DNA of 32,566 nucleotides from Marinobacterium arenosum. GTDB taxonomy: Bacteria > Pseudomonadota > Gammaproteobacteria > Pseudomonadales > Balneatricaceae. Position numbers and translations under genes: made by a program. The notes beneath the pieces were generated by a model that saw only the letters and a list, made by a program, of their open reading frames with translations, was not told where the DNA came from and searched no databases. Location of the stretch: the NCBI RefSeq assembly GCF_019795155.1, contig NZ_JAILYN010000051.1, positions 1 through 32,566 of the forward strand. The letters are read 5' to 3'. Of this stretch, positions 6,818 to 32,445 are shown piece after piece (position 1 is the stretch's first letter; every line of letters begins with the position of its first letter).

Positions 6818-8374
6818 ATGTTGGACGGAATCATGACCGGGCTGACCACCGCGGTGATGCCCTTTAACCTGCTGATGGTGGTGGTCGGCTGCTTCGCCGG
6901 CACCTTTATCGGCATGCTGCCGGGGCTGGGCCCAATCTCCGCCGTGGCACTGATGATCCCGATCACCTACGGTCTGGATCCCTCCTCCGGCATCATCCTG
7001 ATGGCCGGGGTCTACTACGGCGCGGTCTTCGGCGGCTCCACCTCGTCGATCCTGATCAACGCGCCGGGCTGCGCCAGCACCGTGGTCACCGCCTTCGACG
7101 GCTACCCGCTGGCCCAGCAGAAGCAGGCCGGCAAGGCACTGGCGCTGGCCGCCTACTCCTCGTTCACCGGCGGCACCATCGGCGCCATCGTACTGCTGTT
7201 CGCCGCGCCGGCACTGGCCTCGGTATCGCTGAGCTTCCAGTCCAGCGACTACTTCGCACTGATGCTGTTGGGGCTGACCGCCGTGGCGGCGTTCTCCGGC
7301 AAGGGCCAGGTATTGAAGGCGATGATCATGACCATCTTCGGCCTGATGATCGCCACCGTCGGCACCGACGTGATGTCCGGCGCGCCGCGCTTCACCTTCG
7401 GCAGCCTGGATCTGATCGACGGGGTCAGCTTCCTGTTGCTGGCGATGGCCACCTTCGCACTGGCCGAAGTGGTGATGACGGTGCTGAAGGGCCAGCACAA
7501 GGAGGAGGAACCGGAGATGGATATGGCCTCGCTGGGCAGCATGAAGCTGAGTAAGGACGAGGTGAAGGAGATCGCCCCGACCGTCGCCCGCTCGTCGGTG
7601 TTCGGCTTTATCATCGGCGTGCTGCCGGGTGCCGGCGCCACCATCGCCTCCTTCCTGGCCTACGGCCTGGAGCGCAATCTGGCCTCCGCCAAGGAGAAGC
7701 TGAAGTTCGGCAAGGGCGCGCTGCGCGGCCTGGCGGCGCCGGAGTCGGCCAACAACGCCGCCTCCACCGGCTCCTTCGTGCCGCTGCTGACACTGGGTAT
7801 TCCGGGCTCCGGCACCACCGCCATCATGCTCGGCGCGCTGATCGCCTACGGCATCCAGCCCGGCCCGCGGCTGTTTATCGACAACCCGGACGTGTTCTGG
7901 TCGGTGATCATCTCAATGTACTTCGGCAACCTGGTACTGCTGATCCTGAACCTGCCGCTGATCCCGTACATCTCGCGCCTGCTGGTGATCCCGCGGCCGA
8001 TCCTGATTCCGCTGATCCTGTTCTTCTCGATCACCGGCGTCTACCTGGTCAGCTTCAACACCTTCGATATCCATATGATGGTGATCATCACGGTGCTGGC
8101 GATCCTGCTGAAGCTGCTGAACTTCCCGATGGCACCGATGCTGCTGGGCTTCATCCTCGGCGGTATCATGGAGAACAACCTGAGCCGGGCACTAACCCTG
8201 TCTGACGGCAGTTTCGCGTTCCTGTGGGAGCGGCCGCTGACACTGGCGATCGTGGTTATCACTCTGCTGGTGCTGCTGGTGCCGTTGATCAGCCCGCTGA
8301 TCAGCCGCGCCATAGGCAAGCGCAAGACGAGCTATCCGGGACCGGAGGCGGCGGTCACCGAAGGCGAGGGTTAA
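6818..8374 (+). CDS. tctA: TctA-family large membrane subunit of TTT transporter
   Basis: The 518-residue permease of the tripartite tricarboxylate transporter, with about a dozen transmembrane segments. Conserved TctA motifs are present in both halves: GMLPGLGPISAVALMIP near the N-terminus, GGSTSSILINAPG, and in the second half GVLPGAGATIASFLAYG and GIPGSGTTAIMLGAL. It imports the ligand delivered by TctC using the ion gradient. A strong GGAGG at 6806-6810 precedes the ATG at 6818. It is the last gene of the operon and is followed by a clear terminator. Confidence 0.96.
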   Translation: MLDGIMTGLTTAVMPFNLLMVVVGCFAGTFIGMLPGLGPISAVALMIPITYGLDPSSGIILMAGVYYGAVFGGSTSSILINAPGCASTVVTAFDGYPLAQQKQAGKALALAAYSSFTGGTIGAIVLLFAAPALASVSLSFQSSDYFALMLLGLTAVAAFSGKGQVLKAMIMTIFGLMIATVGTDVMSGAPRFTFGSLDLIDGVSFLLLAMATFALAEVVMTVLKGQHKEEEPEMDMASLGSMKLSKDEVKEIAPTVARSSVFGFIIGVLPGAGATIASFLAYGLERNLASAKEKLKFGKGALRGLAAPESANNAASTGSFVPLLTLGIPGSGTTAIMLGALIAYGIQPGPRLFIDNPDVFWSVIISMYFGNLVLLILNLPLIPYISRLLVIPRPILIPLILFFSITGVYLVSFNTFDIHMMVIITVLAILLKLLNFPMAPMLLGFILGGIMENNLSRALTLSDGSFAFLWERPLTLAIVVITLLVLLVPLISPLISRAIGKRKTSYPGPEAAVTEGEG

Positions 8375-25510: not shown

Positions 25511-26911
25511 TTACGGCTGTGTTTGCATCAGGCTACGCTCACGGCTGGCGGCGTTCAGCCCACCCAGCCAGAACATCAGGCAGCCCACCACCAGTACGGT
25601 CGCGGAGATCCACAACAGCTTGGTGTACTTGTGGCTGTCGCCCAGCAGCGCCGTATAGCCGGATGATTCGGTGAAATAGAGCAGCGCGCCGCCGATCGCC
25701 AGCGCGAAGCTGGCCAGGTAACTCCACAGCGGGATATCTCGCCGGTTGCCCCAGAGGCTGAAGAAGATCACCGGCGCCAGATACATCGATGCCGTACCGC
25801 TGACCGCAACGGCGCTGAACAGGTCCTTGTTGCCGACAAACACCAGCCCCACCCCGAGCAGCATGAACAGCGCCATCGCCAGCCGGCCGTTGCGGATGCC
25901 GGCCGGCAGCAGCGCCATATCGACTACCGTCAGCTTGGCGGCGCTGGACAGGGTACTGTCCAGCGTCGACATCGCCGAGATCACCAGCGAGGCACTGAAC
26001 AGCAGCATCGGCAACTCGCCAAGCAAGCGACTCAGCACCTGGTTCATCGATTCACCGGCCAGCGCGTTGGCGCCGGCGATCACCCCCAACGAACCGAACG
26101 CCAGAATACAGAGGGTGCTGATCCAACCGGCATGGATGAAGCTGCGCCTGGTGGTTTCGCGATCCGCCAGGAAACCGCGATCCATCATTACCGGGTCGTG
26201 CATCGGGTAGCTCCAGATCTGCAACAGCGCCACCAGCAGCAGGATCGGCCCCGGCTCGGAGATCACGAACGGCTTGAACGCCAGCAGTTCGCTGCCGAAG
26301 TGGCCGCCAAAACCGACGATGGCCAGCAGCAGGATCAGCACCAGCAGGAAGATCAGCATCTGGAACAGGTCGGTGCGCAACGAGGCGTGCAATCCGCCCA
26401 GCATCGAGTAGCAAAGAGTTACCAGCGCCAGGCCGAGCACCGCCAGGGTATACGACTGGCTGCCGGCCACCCCGAACAGGATGCCGATCACCAGCAGGTT
26501 GGCAAACACCTCGCTGACCAGCCGCACGCCGATCACGAAGTTGTAGCAACCGGTGCCCCAGCGCCCAAAGCGGTCGGCCAGAAACGCCTGGATGCTGCCA
26601 TAGCCACGCTCGAAACGCAGCTGGTCGATGATCCGGCCGCCGGTCAGGAACGACAGGTAGTAGGCGCCGTAGGCCAGGGTGCCCCAGATGCCGTAATAGA
26701 ACCCCAGGATCGCCGCGTTCAGCAGCGAGCGGGCAAAGATCCAGGTGGTCACCTGGGAGAACACCAGGGTGATCAGGCCCGGCGCCTGGCCGTCCGGCGA
26801 CTGGCCCCGAAAAAACTCGCCCTCGCGGGCGGCTTTGCGTGATAGAAACAGCGAGATGATCGCCACCAGTGCGACCAGAGCAGAAAGCTGATAATCCATG
26901 GTTTCCGGCAT
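25511..26911 (-). CDS. Sodium:solute symporter (SSF) family protein
   Basis: A membrane protein of about 466 residues with 13 or so transmembrane segments and SSF-type features (GFYYGIWGTLAYGAYYLSFL; YSMLGGLHASLRTDLFQM; ISAMSTLDSTLSSAAKLT, the Na+-site helix). It would import a small organic solute with Na+. Two ATGs are plausible, 26911 and 26899; the ATG at 26950 is disfavoured because it coincides with the predicted transcription start of the element at 26958-26987. It is the first gene of an operon with the metallophosphatase. Substrate is not recognisable. Confidence 0.85.
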   Translation of the reverse strand: MPETMDYQLSALVALVAIISLFLSRKAAREGEFFRGQSPDGQAPGLITLVFSQVTTWIFARSLLNAAILGFYYGIWGTLAYGAYYLSFLTGGRIIDQLRFERGYGSIQAFLADRFGRWGTGCYNFVIGVRLVSEVFANLLVIGILFGVAGSQSYTLAVLGLALVTLCYSMLGGLHASLRTDLFQMLIFLLVLILLLAIVGFGGHFGSELLAFKPFVISEPGPILLLVALLQIWSYPMHDPVMMDRGFLADRETTRRSFIHAGWISTLCILAFGSLGVIAGANALAGESMNQVLSRLLGELPMLLFSASLVISAMSTLDSTLSSAAKLTVVDMALLPAGIRNGRLAMALFMLLGVGLVFVGNKDLFSAVAVSGTASMYLAPVIFFSLWGNRRDIPLWSYLASFALAIGGALLYFTESSGYTALLGDSHKYTKLLWISATVLVVGCLMFWLGGLNAASRERSLMQTQP

Positions 26912-26957
26912 CCGACAGAGATTATTGTTAACGGCAGGCACGTTCGCCATCGCTTCT

Positions 26958-26987
26958 TAGTCGCGGCACCCTGCGGTTTCTTACAGT
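26958..26987 (-). promoter_or_regulatory. ECF-like promoter element upstream of symporter operon
   Basis: On the minus strand ACTGTAAGAA (26987-26978), a 14-base spacer starting ACCGCAG, then CGACTA (26963-26958). The same two boxes with the same spacing occur in front of the arsS-type gene. A CGACTA -10 and a TGTAA-containing -35 resemble ECF sigma promoters. It is about 47 bases upstream of the preferred start codon. Confidence 0.6.
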
Positions 26988-27018
26988 TTTTGCCGACCTT
27001 AAAAAACCGGCCGCCCGC

Positions 27019-27699
27019 TCAGCGATACAGCTGTGCCAGCCGGGCCGGGTCCGCGCCACGCCAGTACGCCCAGCGCAGCCGCCACATCAGCAGGATGGTT
27101 TTCCAGACGCCGCGGGACTCCCAGCGGCGGCCGGAGGTGAGGACGCGATCGCGCAGGCAGAGCGGCGCGCCGAACCGCTTCAAACGGGCCGACAGCTCGA
27201 TATCCTCCATCAACGGCTGCTCGGGGAAACCGCCGACCTGCTCGAACACCGGGCGGCGGACGAAGATCGCCTGGTCGCCGGTGGCGATGCCGCTGAGTCG
27301 CGAGCGCAGATTCATCATCGTCGCAATCAGCGGCAGCATCGCGGCATTACCACTGAGCCGCACGTCGAAACGGCCCCACTGTTTATCGCCCGACTGCAGC
27401 GCCGCCAGAAGTCGCCGGTCGGCCTCCTGCGGCAGCCGGGTATCGGCGTGCAGAAACAGCAGCACCTCCCCCTGCGTCTCCTCGGCACCGGCATTCATCT
27501 GCCGTGCCCGGCCGCGCGGGGCATGCACCACCCGGAAACCGGCCGCTTCGGCGATATCCGCCGAGCCATCGCTGCTGCCGCCATCCACCAGCAGAATTTC
27601 ACAGCCACGCGGCTGCCAATACCGTAGATGCTCCAGCAACTCGGACAGCACCGCCGCTTCATTGAGCATCGGCACGATAATCGATAGCGGTTTTGGCAT
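27019..27699 (-). CDS. Family 2 glycosyltransferase (TIGR04283, rSAM/selenodomain-associated transferase 2 type)
   Basis: A 226-residue GT-A fold glycosyltransferase. It begins with SIIVPMLNEAAVL, followed by the nucleotide-sugar motif LLVDGGSSDGS (37-47) and FLHADTRLP with metal-binding Asp86. RGRARQMNAGA, GDQAIFVRR, GGFPEQPLMEDIELSARLKR and RRWESRGVW are typical of the transferase family that travels with ArsS-type radical SAM genes. It follows the flavoprotein fusion gene by only five bases (TGACAAAGATG), so it is translationally coupled. Role in decorating the ArsS product is inference from known gene neighbourhoods. Confidence 0.88.
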   Translation of the reverse strand: MPKPLSIIVPMLNEAAVLSELLEHLRYWQPRGCEILLVDGGSSDGSADIAEAAGFRVVHAPRGRARQMNAGAEETQGEVLLFLHADTRLPQEADRRLLAALQSGDKQWGRFDVRLSGNAAMLPLIATMMNLRSRLSGIATGDQAIFVRRPVFEQVGGFPEQPLMEDIELSARLKRFGAPLCLRDRVLTSGRRWESRGVWKTILLMWRLRWAYWRGADPARLAQLYR

Positions 27700-27704
27700 C
27701 TTTG

Positions 27705-29942
27705 TCAGCTTCCAACCTTCGAGTCGAAGGGCTCGCTGCTGTCCGAGCCCGAGGAGCCCGCAGGCTGGCGAGTGTCGCTCGGCACGCCTTTACCTCGCCG
27801 CCAGCGGTGGTAGCGCGCCAACCAGTTCAGCAGGGTTTGCGGCGCGTGTGCCCGCTTCCACTCGCCGGCGGCGTACTTGTTCGCTTCCGCCCAGGTCGGA
27901 TAGGCATGCACGGTGCCGAGTATCTTGTTCAGCCCCAGACCATGCTTCATCGCCAGCACGAACTCGGCCAGTAGATCGCCAGCATGCTCACCGACGATGG
28001 TGACGCCGAGAATCCGGTCCTTGCCCGGTTCGGTCAGCACTTTGACGAAACCATGCGCACCGCTGTCGGCGATCGCCCGGTCCAGATCGTCCAGCCCATA
28101 GCGGGTGACTTCGACCGCGATCCCCTTGTCCCTGGCCTGCTGCTCGTTGAGGCCGACATGCGCGACCTCGGGATCGATAAAGGTGGTGCGGGGGATCACC
28201 CGGTAATCGACCTGGAAGCGCTTCAGATTGCCGAACAGCGCATTGACCGCGGCGTACCAGGCCTGATGGGCGGCGGTATGGGTGAACTGATAGGGGCCGG
28301 CCACATCGCCGACCGCATAGATGTTCGGATAGAGGGTCTCCAAATAGGCGTTGGTGACCACCGTGCGGTCGGTCTCGATACCCAGCTCCTCCAGGCCGTA
28401 ACCGTCCAGCCGGGGTTGACGGCCGACCGCACAGAGCAGATCGTCGAACTCGATCGACGTTTCGGTACCCTGATGTTCGACGACGATAGTTTTGACATCG
28501 CCGTCGCATTCGCAGCGCAGCGCCGTATGGCCGGTCAACACCTGGACGCCGTCGGCGCGCAACGACTGTTCGGCCAACACCGAGACATCCTCATCTTCCC
28601 GTCCCAGCAAACGTGGGCCGCGCTCGATCTGCACCACCTCGGAACCGAGCCGGGCGAAGCTCTGCGCCAGTTCGCAGCCGATCGGCCCGCCACCGAGCAC
28701 CACCAGCCGCTTGGGGCTCTCTTCACGCTGGGCGAAAGTTTCCCAGAGCGTATCGCTGGTGACATAGCCGGTCTGCTCGATACCCGGCAGCGGCGGCACG
28801 ATCGGGCTGGCGCCGGTGGCGATCACGATACTGCGGGTGGTCAGCCGCTGCAGCTGGCCGTCATGGCGTTTGATCTCGACGGTCCAGGGGTCGACGATCC
28901 GCGCGTAGCCCTGCACCACGTCGACACCGAGCCCGGTATAGCGCTCGACGCTGTCATGCGGCTCTACCGCCTTGATTACCTGATGCACCCGCGCCATCAC
29001 CTGCTTGAACGAGAAGCCGGGCGTGGTGCTCTGCAGGCCATAGCGGTCGGCGTGGCGCATCTGGTGTGCCAAGCGGGCGCTCTTGATTAGCGCCTTGCTC
29101 GGTACGCAGCCGTAATTGAGGCAGTCCCCGCCCATCTTCTGTGCTTCCACCAATGTGACCTTGGCCTTCACCGCCGCGGCGATATAGGCGGACACCAGGC
29201 CGCCCGCGCCGGCGCCGATCACCACCAGGTTGCGATCAAAATGTGCCGGCCGCTGCCAACGGGCGTAGACCCGGCGACGCTGAACCCAGGCCAGGACCTT
29301 GCGGGCCAGCAGCGGGAACAGGCCGAGCAATGCGAAGGAGAACAGCAGCGCCGGTGACAGGATGCCGGCCAGGCTATCCAGTTGCGCCAGCTGGGTACCG
29401 GCGTTGACGTACACCAGGGTACCGGCCAGCATGCCGACCTGGCTGACCCAGTAAAAAGTGGTCGCCCGAATCGGCGTCAGCCCCATCAGCAGGTTGATCA
29501 GGAAGAACGGAAACACCGGCACCAGCCGCAGCGTGAACAGATAGAACGCACCATCCCGCGCCGCGCCCTCGTTGATCGCCTTCAGCCGGCTGCCAAAGCG
29601 GGACTGGACGCTGTCGCGCAACAGGTAGCGGGCGACCAGGAACGCCAGCAATGCACCCAGGCTGGAGGCGAAGGAGACCAGCAGCGTCCCCCAGAGCAGG
29701 CCGAACAGTGCGCCGGCCGCCAGGGTCATCACCGCCGCGCCCGGCAACGACAGCGCCGTCACCGCGACATAGAAGAGGAAAAACAGCCCGCCCATCAACA
29801 GGGGCTCTTCGGCCCGCCAGGCTTCGAACTGCCCCAGGCCCGACTTGACCCCCTCCAGGGTCAGCAAGCGGTCCAGGTCGAACAGGAAAAAGGCCCCCAC
29901 CATCAGTACGATCGCCAGGATAATCAGTCCTTTCTTCATCAT
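27705..29942 (-). CDS. TVP38/TMEM64 membrane domain fused to mercuric-reductase-like FAD oxidoreductase
   Basis: A 745-residue fusion. Residues 1-220 are a TVP38/TMEM64 (VTT) membrane domain with several transmembrane segments (GAAVMTLAAGALFGLLWGT and RLVPVFPFFLINLLMG motifs). Residues 236-700 are a class I pyridine nucleotide-disulfide oxidoreductase with FAD motif GAGAGG (243-248), redox-active Cys274/Cys279 (GGDCLNYGCVPSK) and VLGGGPIGCELAQ for NAD(P). Near the C-terminus VHAYPTWAE has Tyr681 where lipoamide dehydrogenase has its catalytic His, as in MerA-type enzymes. The last 25 residues are low-complexity. It is the middle gene of the operon, 9 bases after the radical SAM gene. Substrate unknown; thiol, metal or metalloid redox at the membrane is plausible. 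Confidence 0.92.
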   Translation of the reverse strand: MMKKGLIILAIVLMVGAFFLFDLDRLLTLEGVKSGLGQFEAWRAEEPLLMGGLFFLFYVAVTALSLPGAAVMTLAAGALFGLLWGTLLVSFASSLGALLAFLVARYLLRDSVQSRFGSRLKAINEGAARDGAFYLFTLRLVPVFPFFLINLLMGLTPIRATTFYWVSQVGMLAGTLVYVNAGTQLAQLDSLAGILSPALLFSFALLGLFPLLARKVLAWVQRRRVYARWQRPAHFDRNLVVIGAGAGGLVSAYIAAAVKAKVTLVEAQKMGGDCLNYGCVPSKALIKSARLAHQMRHADRYGLQSTTPGFSFKQVMARVHQVIKAVEPHDSVERYTGLGVDVVQGYARIVDPWTVEIKRHDGQLQRLTTRSIVIATGASPIVPPLPGIEQTGYVTSDTLWETFAQREESPKRLVVLGGGPIGCELAQSFARLGSEVVQIERGPRLLGREDEDVSVLAEQSLRADGVQVLTGHTALRCECDGDVKTIVVEHQGTETSIEFDDLLCAVGRQPRLDGYGLEELGIETDRTVVTNAYLETLYPNIYAVGDVAGPYQFTHTAAHQAWYAAVNALFGNLKRFQVDYRVIPRTTFIDPEVAHVGLNEQQARDKGIAVEVTRYGLDDLDRAIADSGAHGFVKVLTEPGKDRILGVTIVGEHAGDLLAEFVLAMKHGLGLNKILGTVHAYPTWAEANKYAAGEWKRAHAPQTLLNWLARYHRWRRGKGVPSDTRQPAGSSGSDSSEPFDSKVGS

Positions 29943-29951
29943 CAGATCTCC

Positions 29952-30902
29952 CTATAGGGCTCCGCCGCAGCTACTGCCCTGCCCCGCGGTGCAGCCATAA
30001 CAGTGGTCCGCTACGCAGATCGCTTTACCGGCCATATCCTCATTCAGCAGATCGCGCAGGTGCCGGGTTTTGCCGGCCACTGCCAGACCCAGCTGCTGGT
30101 TGAAGTCACAGTCATACAGCTTACCCTGCCAGTCCACGCTGATCAGCGAGCGGCACATGACGCCATCGAGATTCGCAGCCGTGTAGTTGTCCTTCAGCAG
30201 CTGCATATACGGTTCGAACTGCCCTTTCGAGATCAGCATCGAGCCGAACCGCTTGATCGGCATGTTCGCCAGCGCATAGAGCTCATTGAACCGGATGCCA
30301 AAATGCTGCTTCAGCTCGCGCTTGTAGTCGGCCTGCAGCGCCTGCTGGGATGGCGGTAGCGAGGGCCCCTGAGGGTTATAGACCAGATTGAGTTTCAGGC
30401 CGGAGGCTTCATCGCCATAGCCCAAGGCGTTCAGTTTCTGCAGACCGGTAATACTCTTGTCGAACACCCCCTTGCCCCGCTGTTTATCAACATTTTCCAA
30501 CGAATAGCAGGGCAAGGAGGCGACCACCTCGACGCCCTGCTCGGCAAGAAACTCGGCCAGCCCAGCCTGCTCCGGCTCGAACAGGATGGTCAGGTTGCAG
30601 CGGTCGATCACCCGCACGCCCAGCGCGCGCGCCTGGCGCACCAGATCACGAAAACCCTGATGCATCTCTGGCGCACCGCCGGTGAGGTCCAGCGTGCCAA
30701 TGGCACGCTTTTGCAACACCTCGGGAATCAACGCCAAGGTCTCCGGCGCCATCATCTCGCTGCGATGGGGCCCGGCATTCACATGGCAATGAACACAGCT
30801 CTGGTTACAGCGATACCCTAGATTAACCTGCAGCGTCTCGGTCCTCTGACGTTTGATTCGGGGAAAGTCGGTGACCTCGAGCAACGGTAGGGTGGCCAGC
30901 AT
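29952..30902 (-). CDS. arsS: ArsS-like radical SAM / Cys-rich domain protein
   Basis: A 316-residue radical SAM enzyme with the cluster motif CxxxCxxC at Cys32, Cys36 and Cys39 (YRCNQSCVHCHV) and the following LDLTGGAPE. The C-terminal Cys-rich domain includes VMCRSLISVDW, LYDCDFNQQLG and CYGCTAGQGSSCGGAL. This is the TIGR04167 family, named ArsS where it joins the adenosyl moiety of SAM to dimethylarsenic in arsenosugar synthesis. Some relatives have selenocysteine at the C-terminal SSxGG; here it is TGC cysteine (residue 312). The ATG at 30902 follows CAGGAG. It heads a three-gene operon; no arsM is in the window, so the arsenic role is provisional. Confidence 0.88.
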   Translation of the reverse strand: MLATLPLLEVTDFPRIKRQRTETLQVNLGYRCNQSCVHCHVNAGPHRSEMMAPETLALIPEVLQKRAIGTLDLTGGAPEMHQGFRDLVRQARALGVRVIDRCNLTILFEPEQAGLAEFLAEQGVEVVASLPCYSLENVDKQRGKGVFDKSITGLQKLNALGYGDEASGLKLNLVYNPQGPSLPPSQQALQADYKRELKQHFGIRFNELYALANMPIKRFGSMLISKGQFEPYMQLLKDNYTAANLDGVMCRSLISVDWQGKLYDCDFNQQLGLAVAGKTRHLRDLLNEDMAGKAICVADHCYGCTAGQGSSCGGAL

Positions 30903-31087
30903 GGTTTACTCCTGTTTGCGAAATTTGTGCACGCCTTCCGGCAGGCTTTATTCAGTAGTCGTCACAGACCGCGGATTCTTACAGTCTGTTGCACAGTAAC
31001 GCAGATAGACCATTCCACCCACCGCAGATTCAACCTGTCTTCTAACTGCTGCCGGTTCAATGTCCATATCCGTGCACTGCCATCAAC
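30903..31087. other. Upstream region of arsS-like operon
   Basis: Gap between the leftward arsS-like gene and the rightward CMD gene's operator. Besides the ECF-like element it has an inverted pair ACAGAC-N14-GTCTGT (30964-30989) overlapping that element's spacer and -35 box, and no small gene. Confidence 0.35.
30956..30985 (-). promoter_or_regulatory. ECF-like promoter element upstream of arsS-like operon
   Basis: On the minus strand ACTGTAAGAA (30985-30976), a 14-base spacer starting TCCGCGG, then CGACTA (30961-30956), matching box for box the element at 26958-26987. Predicted start is near 30948, about 46 bases before the ATG. Confidence 0.6.
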
Positions 31088-31141
31088 TTGAACACTTGCT
31101 CAATCCAAGCTAGATTAACCCCATATTGAGCACTTGCTCAA
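31088..31141 (+). promoter_or_regulatory. Sigma-70 promoter with two TetR-type operators
   Basis: Two 16 bp near-palindromes lie 38 bp apart: TTGAACACTTGCTCAA (31088-31103) and TTGAGCACTTGCTCAA (31126-31141), the second perfect apart from its 2-base centre. Between them is a strong sigma-70 promoter: TTGAAC (31088-31093), 17 bases, TAGATT (31111-31116). The first operator covers the -35 box and the second the start-site region, so a bound repressor would block transcription of the CMD gene. The TetR protein encoded downstream is the likely ligand. Confidence 0.8.
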
Positions 31142-31179: not shown

Positions 31180-31719
31180 ATGAGCCACTTCGAAATCCAT
31201 GACCTCGACTCCGCCCCCGCGGAGAGTAAACTCCTACTGGAGCGCTCGATTCAGAATTTCGGCAGCATCCCCAACCTGCATGGGGTGATGGCCGAGTCTC
31301 CCGTCGTACTGGAGGCCTACCAGCAACTGCATACCCTGTTTCAGAACAGCTCGTTCGACGCGGAAGAGCTCACGGTGATCTGGCAGACCATCAACGTCGA
31401 ACACAACTGCCACTACTGCGTGCCGGCCCATGCCGCCATTGCGCAGATGATGAAAGTCGACGACCAGCTGACCGAAGCACTGCGCGAACGTCAGCCGATG
31501 CCCAAGGAAAAACTGCAGGTGCTGCACGACACCACCCTCGCTCTGGTGCGCGAACGTGGCATCTTGAGTGCCGAGCAGCTCGACCGGTTCTACAATGCGG
31601 GTTACAACCAGAAGCAACTGCTGGAGATCGTACTGGGCATCGCGCAGAAGGTTATGAGCAATTACATCAACCACCTGGCAGACACGCCGCTGGATGAGCG
31701 ATTCGCCGGTTTCGCCTAA
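31180..31719 (+). CDS. Carboxymuconolactone decarboxylase/AhpD-fold protein
   Basis: A 179-residue all-helical protein of the CMD/AhpD superfamily, peroxidase-related branch. The redox site is E-H-N-C-H-Y-C-V-P-A-H with Cys77, Cys80 and His84, the CxxCxxxH motif used for disulfide-based peroxide or electrophile reduction. The ATG at 31180 gives the normal length and follows CAGGA; the upstream frame includes the operator. It is controlled by the paired operators immediately upstream and followed 156 bp later by a tetR gene. A stress-induced detoxification role is inferred. Confidence 0.9.
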   Translation: MSHFEIHDLDSAPAESKLLLERSIQNFGSIPNLHGVMAESPVVLEAYQQLHTLFQNSSFDAEELTVIWQTINVEHNCHYCVPAHAAIAQMMKVDDQLTEALRERQPMPKEKLQVLHDTTLALVRERGILSAEQLDRFYNAGYNQKQLLEIVLGIAQKVMSNYINHLADTPLDERFAGFA

Positions 31720-31763: not shown

Positions 31764-31875
31764 AGCCCATAGCCAAGAGGCCTGTTCGCAGCTACCCAAG
31801 CGGTTCACCGGCGGCTTTGGTTGCGGGAACAGGACCGGGATATACTTGGCGGATCAAAATATTTCGGGGGCCGGC

Positions 31876-32445
31876 ATGGTCAATATTGCAAAATTTGATC
31901 GCCAGGAGGTGGTCAGCCGCGCCATGCGGCTGTTCTGGCAGAAAGGTTTCAAGGGCACCTCCACCCGCGACCTGCAGCAGGTGATCAATATGCACCCCGG
32001 CAGCATCTATGCCGCCTTCGGTAGCAAAGCCGGCTTGTATCGCGAGGCACTCGATTACTACGCCGGTGAGATGGCAGCGCGGCTGCAATCGCTGATTCAA
32101 CAACATGGCTCGGTACTGGAGGGGTTCCAAGCCTTTTTCCGGCAGGCGCTGCTCGACCAACAGCACAGTCCGCCGAGCAATATGTGCATGCTGGTCAAGA
32201 CTGCGGTAGAGCTACAGGGCAAGGAAGTGGCGCTCTGCGAACAGGCGAAGCTTCGCCTGGCGGAAACCGAGCAGCTTTTTACCCGCTTACTCGATCAAGC
32301 GCGGGCTAACGGGGAGCTACCAGCAGAGACCTCCACGACCGAGCTGGCTCGCTATCTGCAAATACAGATGATGGGACTGCGCAGCTACAAGGCCTGCAGT
32401 GCCGAGACCCAGACCATTGAAGCCATGATAGAACGTTTGTTTTGA
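31876..32445 (+). CDS. TetR/AcrR-family transcriptional regulator
   Basis: A 189-residue TetR repressor. The DNA-binding domain is residues 8-55, with helix-turn-helix GTSTRDLQQVINMHPGSIYA and FGSKAGLYREAL as in the family. The C-terminal ligand domain contains Met/Cys residues (SNMCMLVKTAVEL; Cys114 and others) that could be thiol sensors, which is speculation. The ATG at 31876 is preferred over a TTG at 31846. It very likely binds the TTGARCACTTGCTCAA sites before the CMD gene. The stop codon TGA lies exactly at the border of an IS256-type element, so the original 3' end may have been altered. Confidence 0.9.
   Translation: MVNIAKFDRQEVVSRAMRLFWQKGFKGTSTRDLQQVINMHPGSIYAAFGSKAGLYREALDYYAGEMAARLQSLIQQHGSVLEGFQAFFRQALLDQQHSPPSNMCMLVKTAVELQGKEVALCEQAKLRLAETEQLFTRLLDQARANGELPAETSTTELARYLQIQMMGLRSYKACSAETQTIEAMIERLF

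Follow-up and report, generated by a model that had tools for sequence, protein, structure and literature searches.

The DNA analyzed here (the window) is a stretch of 32,566 nucleotides from Marinobacterium arenosum (assembly GCF_019795155.1, contig NZ_JAILYN010000051.1), and it carries on its minus strand two transcription units, each with a copy of the same promoter-like element in front of it (Table 1). The unit behind the first copy (P1) consists of arsS, a gene for a VTT/TVP38 membrane domain fused to a flavoprotein (VTT-flavoprotein) and a TIGR04283 glycosyltransferase gene, and the unit behind the second copy (P2) consists of genes for a sodium:solute-symporter-like (SSF) membrane protein and a metallophosphoesterase.

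Two identical elements in front of the arsS and SSF units

The element, ACTGTAAGAA-N14-CGACTA, was found with identical boxes and a 14-bp spacer in both copies, in agreement with the original prediction, which had also noted no other copy in the window. This was borne out, as no further copy was present in the whole window at up to three mismatches; the chance expectation at this stringency was a mean of 0.04 matches in 100 dinucleotide shuffles, none of which contained two matches. A relaxed scan of the window (TGTAAGRA, CGWCTA, spacers of 13-16) gave three extra places only, all at three mismatches. The spacers and flanks of P1 and P2 are unlike each other, and the two copies are therefore not a duplicated block. 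The operons had been described as separate; there are indeed two units, each with its own element, but they are adjacent and in tandem, and P2 falls in the gap that separates the end of the glycosyltransferase gene (stop at 27019) from the SSF gene. The ATG of arsS is preceded by AGGAG. The listed start of the SSF gene coincides with the predicted +1 of P2, which makes the ATG at 26899 the likelier true start; this ATG gives an MDYQ... N-terminus resembling that of a relative in locus L080. No Pfam match was obtained for the SSF-like protein.

Table 1. Predicted promoters and genes of the two units in the window
Feature	Position	Strand	Details
P1, promoter (predicted)	30956..30985	-	-35-like TGTAAGAA 30983-30976; 14-bp spacer; -10-like CGACTA 30961-30956; predicted +1 A 30948
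arsS-type radical SAM protein, 316 aa	29952..30902	-	TIGR04167 472.8 bits (cut-off 300); DUF3641 and Radical_SAM
VTT/TVP38 membrane domain fused to pyridine-nucleotide-disulfide oxidoreductase (VTT-flavoprotein), 745 aa	27705..29942	-	PF09335, PF07992, PF02852
Family-2 glycosyltransferase, 226 aa	27019..27699	-	TIGR04283 292.2 bits (cut-off 182); NCBIfam name "arsenosugar biosynthesis glycosyltransferase"
P2, promoter (predicted)	26958..26987	-	-35-like TGTAAGAA 26985-26978; -10-like CGACTA 26963-26958; predicted +1 A 26950
SSF-like membrane protein, 479 aa as listed	25511..26950	-	TIGR00813 E 4.4e-8, but 32.6 bits (cut-off 184)
Calcineurin-like metallophosphoesterase, 279 aa	24659..25498	-	PF12850 and PF00149 over cut-off

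The same element precedes an ECF sigma gene and a metallophore-type operon

When the 4.80-Mb genome was scanned with TGTAAGAA-N14-CGACTA, four exact matches and one one-mismatch match were found, compared to none for the reversed control pattern at up to one mismatch. At two mismatches the pattern was not above background (14 matches compared to 23 for the reversed pattern, and 5 compared to 2 with an extra AC), and only the five best sites were therefore used. Besides P1 and P2, exact sites lie on contigs C26 and C39 and the one-mismatch site on contig C65.

The C26 site ends 86 bp before the GTG, and 113 bp before an in-frame ATG, of a gene for an extracytoplasmic function (ECF) sigma factor (profile match at C26:85736-86368). 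Its product scored 245.7 bits with TIGR02943 (cut-off 162.2) and also passed the cut-off of PRK12544; it was the one protein over the TIGR02943 cut-off among four matches to this profile in the genome at E<=0.001. Directly after it lies an anti-sigma gene (NF052368, 77.4 bits compared to a cut-off of 50; zf-HC2, 35.1 compared to 22.2), the small product of which has the zinc-binding-type motif C-X25-H-X3-C-X2-C, within the form C/H-X23-26-H-X3-C-X2-C expected of this kind of anti-sigma factor. Behind the C65 site are an EGKCG-repeat precursor, an MNIO enzyme (PF05114), a DUF2063 protein (PF09836/PF22106) and DoxX (PF07681), the last three all over their cut-offs, forming a copper-metallophore-type operon. 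The precursor scored 134.4 bits with the NF050137 domain (cut-off 19.5) and 85.0 bits with the HvfA equivalog NF050188, below the cut-off of 95, and for this reason it is named HvfA-like. The exact site on C39 (93610-93637; L004:1503-1530) has the ACAACCG start of the sigma promoter and faces the 3' end of a gene which, from its sequence, we take to be oadA-like. A small-RNA reading of this site was rejected, as the RNA folded no better than shuffled sequences (z-score -0.46). No msr gene lies behind any of the five sites.

Exact sites accompany the sigma gene in relatives

In a set of 37 genomes, a strong sigma match was defined as E below 1e-39, a line drawn at a gap after the list had been viewed (the next match was 2e-27). 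The exact site TGTAAGRA-N14-CGACTA occurred in 9 of the 10 genomes with a strong sigma match, the M. arenosum genome included, compared to 1 of the 27 others (G019; Fisher 8e-7). Sigma, MNIO/bufferin, arsS-module or msrAB genes followed 14 of the 16 exact sites in those nine genomes, the exceptions being the C39 site and a DUF3047 gene in G014. Exact TGTAAGRA-type sites were seen before two unassigned gene types, DUF3047 (G014, L101:5498-4654) and DUF3179 (G019, L096:4948-5962).

In the congener G002 the sigma gene, the anti-sigma gene, an exact site, arsS, the VTT-flavoprotein gene, the SSF gene and the phosphatase gene stand in one row, and G003 has the same order until its contig ends within the VTT-flavoprotein gene; in the third congener, G001, both the site and a strong sigma match were absent. 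In G023 the order is site, arsS, VTT-flavoprotein, fatty-acid hydroxylase, glycosyltransferase, DUF2064 and sigma. The row in G012 has arsS, a DoxX/DUF2063/MNIO set with a one-mismatch site, sigma, anti-sigma and SSF, and continues with a phosphatase-like gene, a VTT-flavoprotein gene, and an exact site before a glycosyltransferase and DUF2064. In G008 a site is followed by two DUF2282-type genes, MNIO, DUF2063, a DoxX-cluster gene and a VTT-flavoprotein gene. The sigma gene adjoins arsS in G002, G003, G012, G023 and, with a weaker sigma match, G027. Genes of msr type also had sites before them, namely msrAB in G007 and, with one mismatch, an msrPQ-like pair in G008.

An order-wide sample of 145 genomes contained 21 with a sigma factor over the cut-off, 55 with arsS over the cut-off and 12 with an exact site. 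The site was found in 8 of the 21 sigma-bearing genomes compared to 4 of the 124 sigma-less genomes (p 1.8e-5). In sigma-bearing genomes beyond the family of M. arenosum, sites preceded HvfA-like/MNIO genes in G138, G060, G151 and G041. An exact site in G112 (L176:258-1784), likewise sigma-bearing, stands before genes for an ArsM-like methyltransferase and an ArsC-like protein, both below curated cut-offs, and so connects the promoter-like element with genes of arsenic type outside the family of M. arenosum. Of the four site-bearing genomes without the sigma, three (G057, G121 and G108) have their exact sites inside or antisense to long open reading frames (ORFs), and these sites were rejected as promoters and taken as chance.

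Elements upstream of arsS genes

The arsS genes were followed in the best 80 of 566 confirmed arsS relatives (GTDB contigs), so that the rates given here are not population rates; the fetched stretches extend up to 10 kb on either side and are shorter at contig ends. Microbulbifer, Halioglobus and Caldimonas are among the named relatives, at 72-76% identity. Neighbors in the 80 loci were a TIGR04283-type glycosyltransferase (55), DUF2064 (52), a VTT-flavoprotein of at least 50% identity (41), a phosphatase (23), SSF (9, always alongside a phosphatase) and MNIO (7). Sigma genes, counted as ORFs of 150-300 aa with E below 1e-8 (by which one further sigma-bearing locus, L208, was dropped), were linked to arsS in 19 of the 80 loci. 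All 20 such genes match TIGR02943 at E 1e-10 or better, and all 20 are followed by the looser, ZAS-type motif [CH]-X20-30-H-X3-C-X2-C, which is also present in 7/7 anti-sigma genes of the relatives.

The upstream test covered 250 bp in front of each gene, for the 62 of 80 arsS genes that passed the gene caller and length filter, with score weights and a cut-off (15) chosen by the analyst. A strong element was found upstream of 17/62 arsS genes compared to 10/926 other genes (p 2e-15); at a cut-off of 14.5 the numbers were 17/62 and 15/926, and at 16 they were 11/62 and 6/926. Strong elements also preceded 5/55 genes of VTT-flavoprotein type, 1/2 of DUF2282, 1/39 glycosyltransferase genes and 1/41 DUF2064 genes. 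Six of the 10 hits before other genes, and both hits in the class labeled ASF, were taken as coding coincidences. These eight sites (L202:2627, L211:4017, L215:8808, L224:7968, L231:8859, L240:9218, L200 and L205) lie inside sigma genes just before anti-sigma genes, and they were not counted as promoters because each is read in the sigma frame as part of a CKxLxIS-like stretch of the protein (CKxLxISTT in L202, L211, L215 and L231). The 28-bp pattern, arising by chance inside sigma genes, is a trap for motif scans of this sigma family.

Across 1.36 Mb of arsS loci, exact sites occurred nine times with a 14-bp and four times with a 15-bp spacer, and shuffled loci gave none in five rounds (the shuffles preserved base composition only). 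Behind nine of these sites lies arsS (4), a VTT-flavoprotein-type gene (2), DUF2282 (2) or DUF2064 (1); of the other four, one in L208 points to a sigma gene at a distance of 533 bp, one in L202 is the coding coincidence, and two in L196 have no assigned gene. In L196, from Pseudogulbenkiania subflava, exact-box sites with a 15-bp spacer were seen at 2889-2917, 6938-6966 and 7022-7050 around the arsS/sigma locus, which suggests a lineage with one extra spacer base.

Scanning the whole genomes of 15 of these organisms yielded 16 exact sites, spread over nine genomes, compared to one for the control. Of the nine sites not seen before, seven stand in front of regulon-type genes, and the remaining two precede an anti-sigma gene and a phosphonate-type ABC transporter. 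All six exact sites of G172 (Rhodocyclaceae; examined for sites) precede genes, namely arsS, a DUF2282 operon, a VTT-flavoprotein gene, a nucleoside phosphorylase with a glycosyltransferase, and MsrPQ-like and MsrAB-like genes, and in G166 a site precedes an MsrB gene. The names MsrPQ-like, MsrAB-like and ArsC-like are the analyst's reading of Pfam and NCBIfam matches. The site before the ABC transporter (G177, L269:1501-3028) is followed by genes for a binding protein and a permease, possibly an uptake system within the regulon.

The arsS and SSF genes could nonetheless be passengers behind real elements, the meaningful targets being the metallophore and Msr genes only. The N. meningitidis and H. 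influenzae regulons are described without arsS in the accessible portions of the literature, and a strong site was found at no more than the 17 arsS genes given above. Against this, arsS has a site of its own in the window, in G002, G003 and G023, and in L225, L242, L244 and L255, and three arsS-pathway-type units of G172 each carry one. We therefore consider a passenger role unlikely.

Promoter or operator

The positions around the boxes were examined in 38 sites hand-picked from those found, including one-mismatch sites and two sites before unassigned gene types (DUF3047 and DUF3179). With such a list the box frequencies are circular, and the informative positions are those outside the boxes. 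An A immediately 3' of the -10 was present in 33/38 sites, and an A at the predicted +1 (base 36 of the element) in 23/38, including both window sites; neither position had been used in the selection. Binomial p-values for these positions overstate independence, since the sites share common ancestry.

The sigma-E promoter of Neisseria has a -35 of GTMAGBWTT, a -10 of CGTCTAAH, a spacer of 12-13 nt and, six nt beyond the -10, a conserved A at which transcription starts (PMC2893595). A bipartite element that served as the operator of an activator or repressor, and not as a -35/-10 promoter, could likewise occur as two identical copies, with the gene of its regulator perhaps beside the target. 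No result of the analysis favored this, and we hold it to be very improbable: the two boxes are dissimilar to each other and without dyad symmetry, the best-conserved positions outside them are the A extending the -10 and the A at the expected start, and the element precedes a sigma gene and has the spacing of the published sigma-E consensus.

A TIGR02943-family sigma factor as the likely regulator

Taken together, these findings describe a rare, position-specific, sigma-linked promoter-like element that is conserved before orthologous and related genes. We conclude that the elements are very probably -35/-10 promoters read by RNA polymerase with the TIGR02943-family ECF sigma factor that is encoded elsewhere in the genome. 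The original prediction had seen the mark of a sigma factor in the fixed spacing, and an ECF-type -35/-10 in the boxes; the exact site before the ECF sigma gene and its anti-sigma gene, the A at +1 and the sigma-E-like spacing support this assignment. It had further looked to a sigma gene among the targets and to scarcity of the pattern at random positions, and had named orthologous operons as a check. An exact site does precede a sigma gene; scarcity agrees with the counts in the 4.80-Mb genome and with the way the sites track sigma presence, and conservation held for arsS, in part of the genes, but not for the 7 SSF genes elsewhere. The single regulon proposed for the five window genes is supported as an ECF regulon, but it would be wider than that list, taking in the metallophore operon and, in relatives, Msr genes. 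How probable we hold the sigma assignment to be rests on the window, on G002 and on the two genome samples; transcription by this sigma factor, the inducing signal and the product of arsS we infer from sequence.

Several observations weigh against this assignment. The exact site on C39 is followed neither by an assigned gene nor by an RNA with a convincing fold. Among the 10 strong-sigma genomes, an exact site lies directly upstream of the sigma gene in the M. arenosum genome and G009 only, and elsewhere none of 18 arsS-linked sigma genes had a strong site within 250 bp upstream. No strong site was found upstream of 45/62 testable arsS genes, nor before any of 7 SSF, 16 phosphatase or 5 MNIO genes in the arsS loci; some of the site-less genes sit inside operons or follow a precursor gene. 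Six of the 15 scanned genomes had no exact site, among them G164 (Halioglobus), whose arsS-linked sigma match is 73% identical to the query, and G111, with no sigma factor over the cut-off, has an exact site before a flavoprotein gene followed by arsS. By genome, co-occurrence of arsS and sigma in the order-wide sample was not significant (11/21 compared to 44/124, p 0.15), and linkage at the locus was therefore used instead. Two bases also depart from the Neisseria promoter: -35 base 6 is A in the M. arenosum genome, compared to B in Neisseria, and G in several relatives, and -10 base 3 is A here (CGACTA) compared to T in CGTCTAAH.

Some of these points would also fit promoters of a different ECF sigma factor, in which case the TIGR02943 sigma gene would itself be controlled by that other factor through the site before it: the G111 site, the 18 linked sigma genes without an upstream site and, in addition, the four TIGR02943-profile matches in the M. 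arenosum genome, of which one is over the cut-off. We give this very little credence, as the sites track the presence of the TIGR02943 sigma in two genome samples and a sigma gene of this type adjoins arsS in the five relatives named above and in 19/80 loci.

If the TIGR02943 sigma factor is the regulator, it would also transcribe its own operon and the HvfA-like metallophore operon. By analogy with Neisseria and Haemophilus, oxidation of thiols or a thiol-reactive metal or metalloid would disarm the anti-sigma factor and free the sigma factor; a release of this kind has been proposed for this type of anti-sigma factor (PMC2893595). The freed sigma factor would then lead to copper-binding thiooxazole peptides together with expression of the arsS, VTT-flavoprotein and glycosyltransferase genes and of the SSF and phosphatase genes, and in relatives to methionine sulfoxide reductases as well.

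The arsS pathway and its substrate

The ArsS and the glycosyltransferase of M. arenosum are over the curated cut-offs of the arsenosugar-type pathway (NCBIfam TIGR04167, TIGR04283, TIGR04282), and the TIGR04282 partner is found in the relative G023. Unlike the NCBIfam pathway as named, the arsS operon here has an ECF-type promoter-like element before it, and no recognizable ArsM was found in the genome. The best match to the ArsM profile NF008823 (other ArsM profiles were not searched) was 68.1 bits, over the methyltransferase core only, compared to six relatives in which most of the profile was covered, at 169-198 bits. The profile is strict, as none of the 37 genomes reached its cut-off of 263. 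The ArsM-like protein of G112, used as a query, gave a best match of 39.7 bits in the M. arenosum genome. Neither this genome nor the other nine strong-sigma genomes had a strong NF008823 match (all below 70 bits). Near arsS, ArsM-like genes were present in 19/80 loci, 10 of these being at least 67% identical to the query.

If ArsS makes an adenosyl-arsenical, then on chemical grounds the phosphorylase, the phosphatase and the glycosyltransferases would fit later steps. Tentatively, and with considerable doubt, the module of arsS, VTT-flavoprotein, glycosyltransferase, SSF and phosphatase genes in M. arenosum and similar bacteria without a recognizable ArsM may be a stress-induced pathway that acts either on methylated arsenicals brought into the cell or on some other thiophilic element or substrate. 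It would then be a small-molecule branch of the ECF response, next to the branch that yields copper-binding thiooxazole peptides and, in relatives, repairs oxidized methionine, and the label "arsenosugar" would be incomplete or wrong for these members.

The sigma assignment supplies a radical-SAM module of unproven product with a likely regulator, with a probable inducing condition and with partners under joint control, which makes its function testable, and further members of the regulon can be predicted from the 28-bp pattern. If the assignment is right, an arsenosugar-type cluster would be linked to copper-binding-peptide genes and, in relatives, to protein repair.

The window also contains two 16-bp TTGAGCAAGTGYTCAA copies within 31088-31141, one a perfect dyad (31141-31126) and one imperfect (31103-31088), in the region that separates arsS from two divergent genes, which encode an AhpD-like peroxidase-related protein (31180-31719) and a TetR regulator (31846-32445). 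Perhaps these are operators of the neighboring TetR protein.

Comparison with known systems

The gig operon, a related metallophore-type operon, lies beside a different ECF gene, rpoQ, and its control by RpoQ is unproven (PMC10304878). The C65 operon shares with the oxazolin/captophorin and bufferin clusters an EGKCG-repeat precursor, MNIO, a DUF2063 partner and DoxX in one operon (PMC12668002, PMC12452194), and here this operon lies behind a one-mismatch site. Sigma and anti-sigma genes also occur in Buf1 clusters, but there the anti-sigma factor is of NrsF type (PMC12452194) and in M. arenosum of zf-HC2 type. The term ArsS has no occurrence in the accessible text of either paper.

RpoE2/HrsE of Haemophilus influenzae has a 67-aa zinc-motif anti-sigma factor, kindred to the type found here, and controls msrAB and a DoxX-like/DUF2063/UPF0276 cluster; the system was studied under hypochlorite stress. 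Only slight autoregulation was reported, compared to an exact site before the sigma gene here, and the regulon as described in that source is without an arsS module (PMC7907618).

With sigma-E of Neisseria meningitidis (NMB2144) and MseR, the M. arenosum system shares an anti-sigma gene directly after the sigma gene (PMC2893595, PMC3240639). The TIGR02943 assignment concerns the M. arenosum sigma factor, and NMB2144 is compared by its published description. The promoters have in common the GTAAG core of the -35, the CG-N-CTA of the -10, the place of the +1 A, and the spacing (21 nt from the G of GTAAG to the C of the -10, or 12 nt after the 9-mer); the trailing TT of the Neisseria -35 is not kept at the sites here. 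Autoregulation is reported for Neisseria sigma-E, and a predicted site lies upstream of the sigma gene here. The Neisseria sigma-E operon has a DoxX-like gene, and msrA/msrB is a target there; here a site precedes msrAB in relatives. The arsS, VTT-flavoprotein, glycosyltransferase, SSF and phosphatase genes are not among the Neisseria sigma-E targets described in the accessible parts of PMC2893595 and PMC3240639. A link of arsS with this sigma factor, bufferins or oxazolins was likewise absent from the titles and abstract openings listed by searches of an open-licence library, which misses most subscription journals. The original prediction had called the set of genes one not known as a described system. 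As far as those searches reach, this stands for the arsS module within the regulon, but the sigma factor and its promoter are of the type described in Neisseria; what seems to be new is the arsS module inside this regulon, by which the Neisseria/Haemophilus sigma-E regulon type would be extended to environmental Beta- and Gammaproteobacteria and to more target classes.

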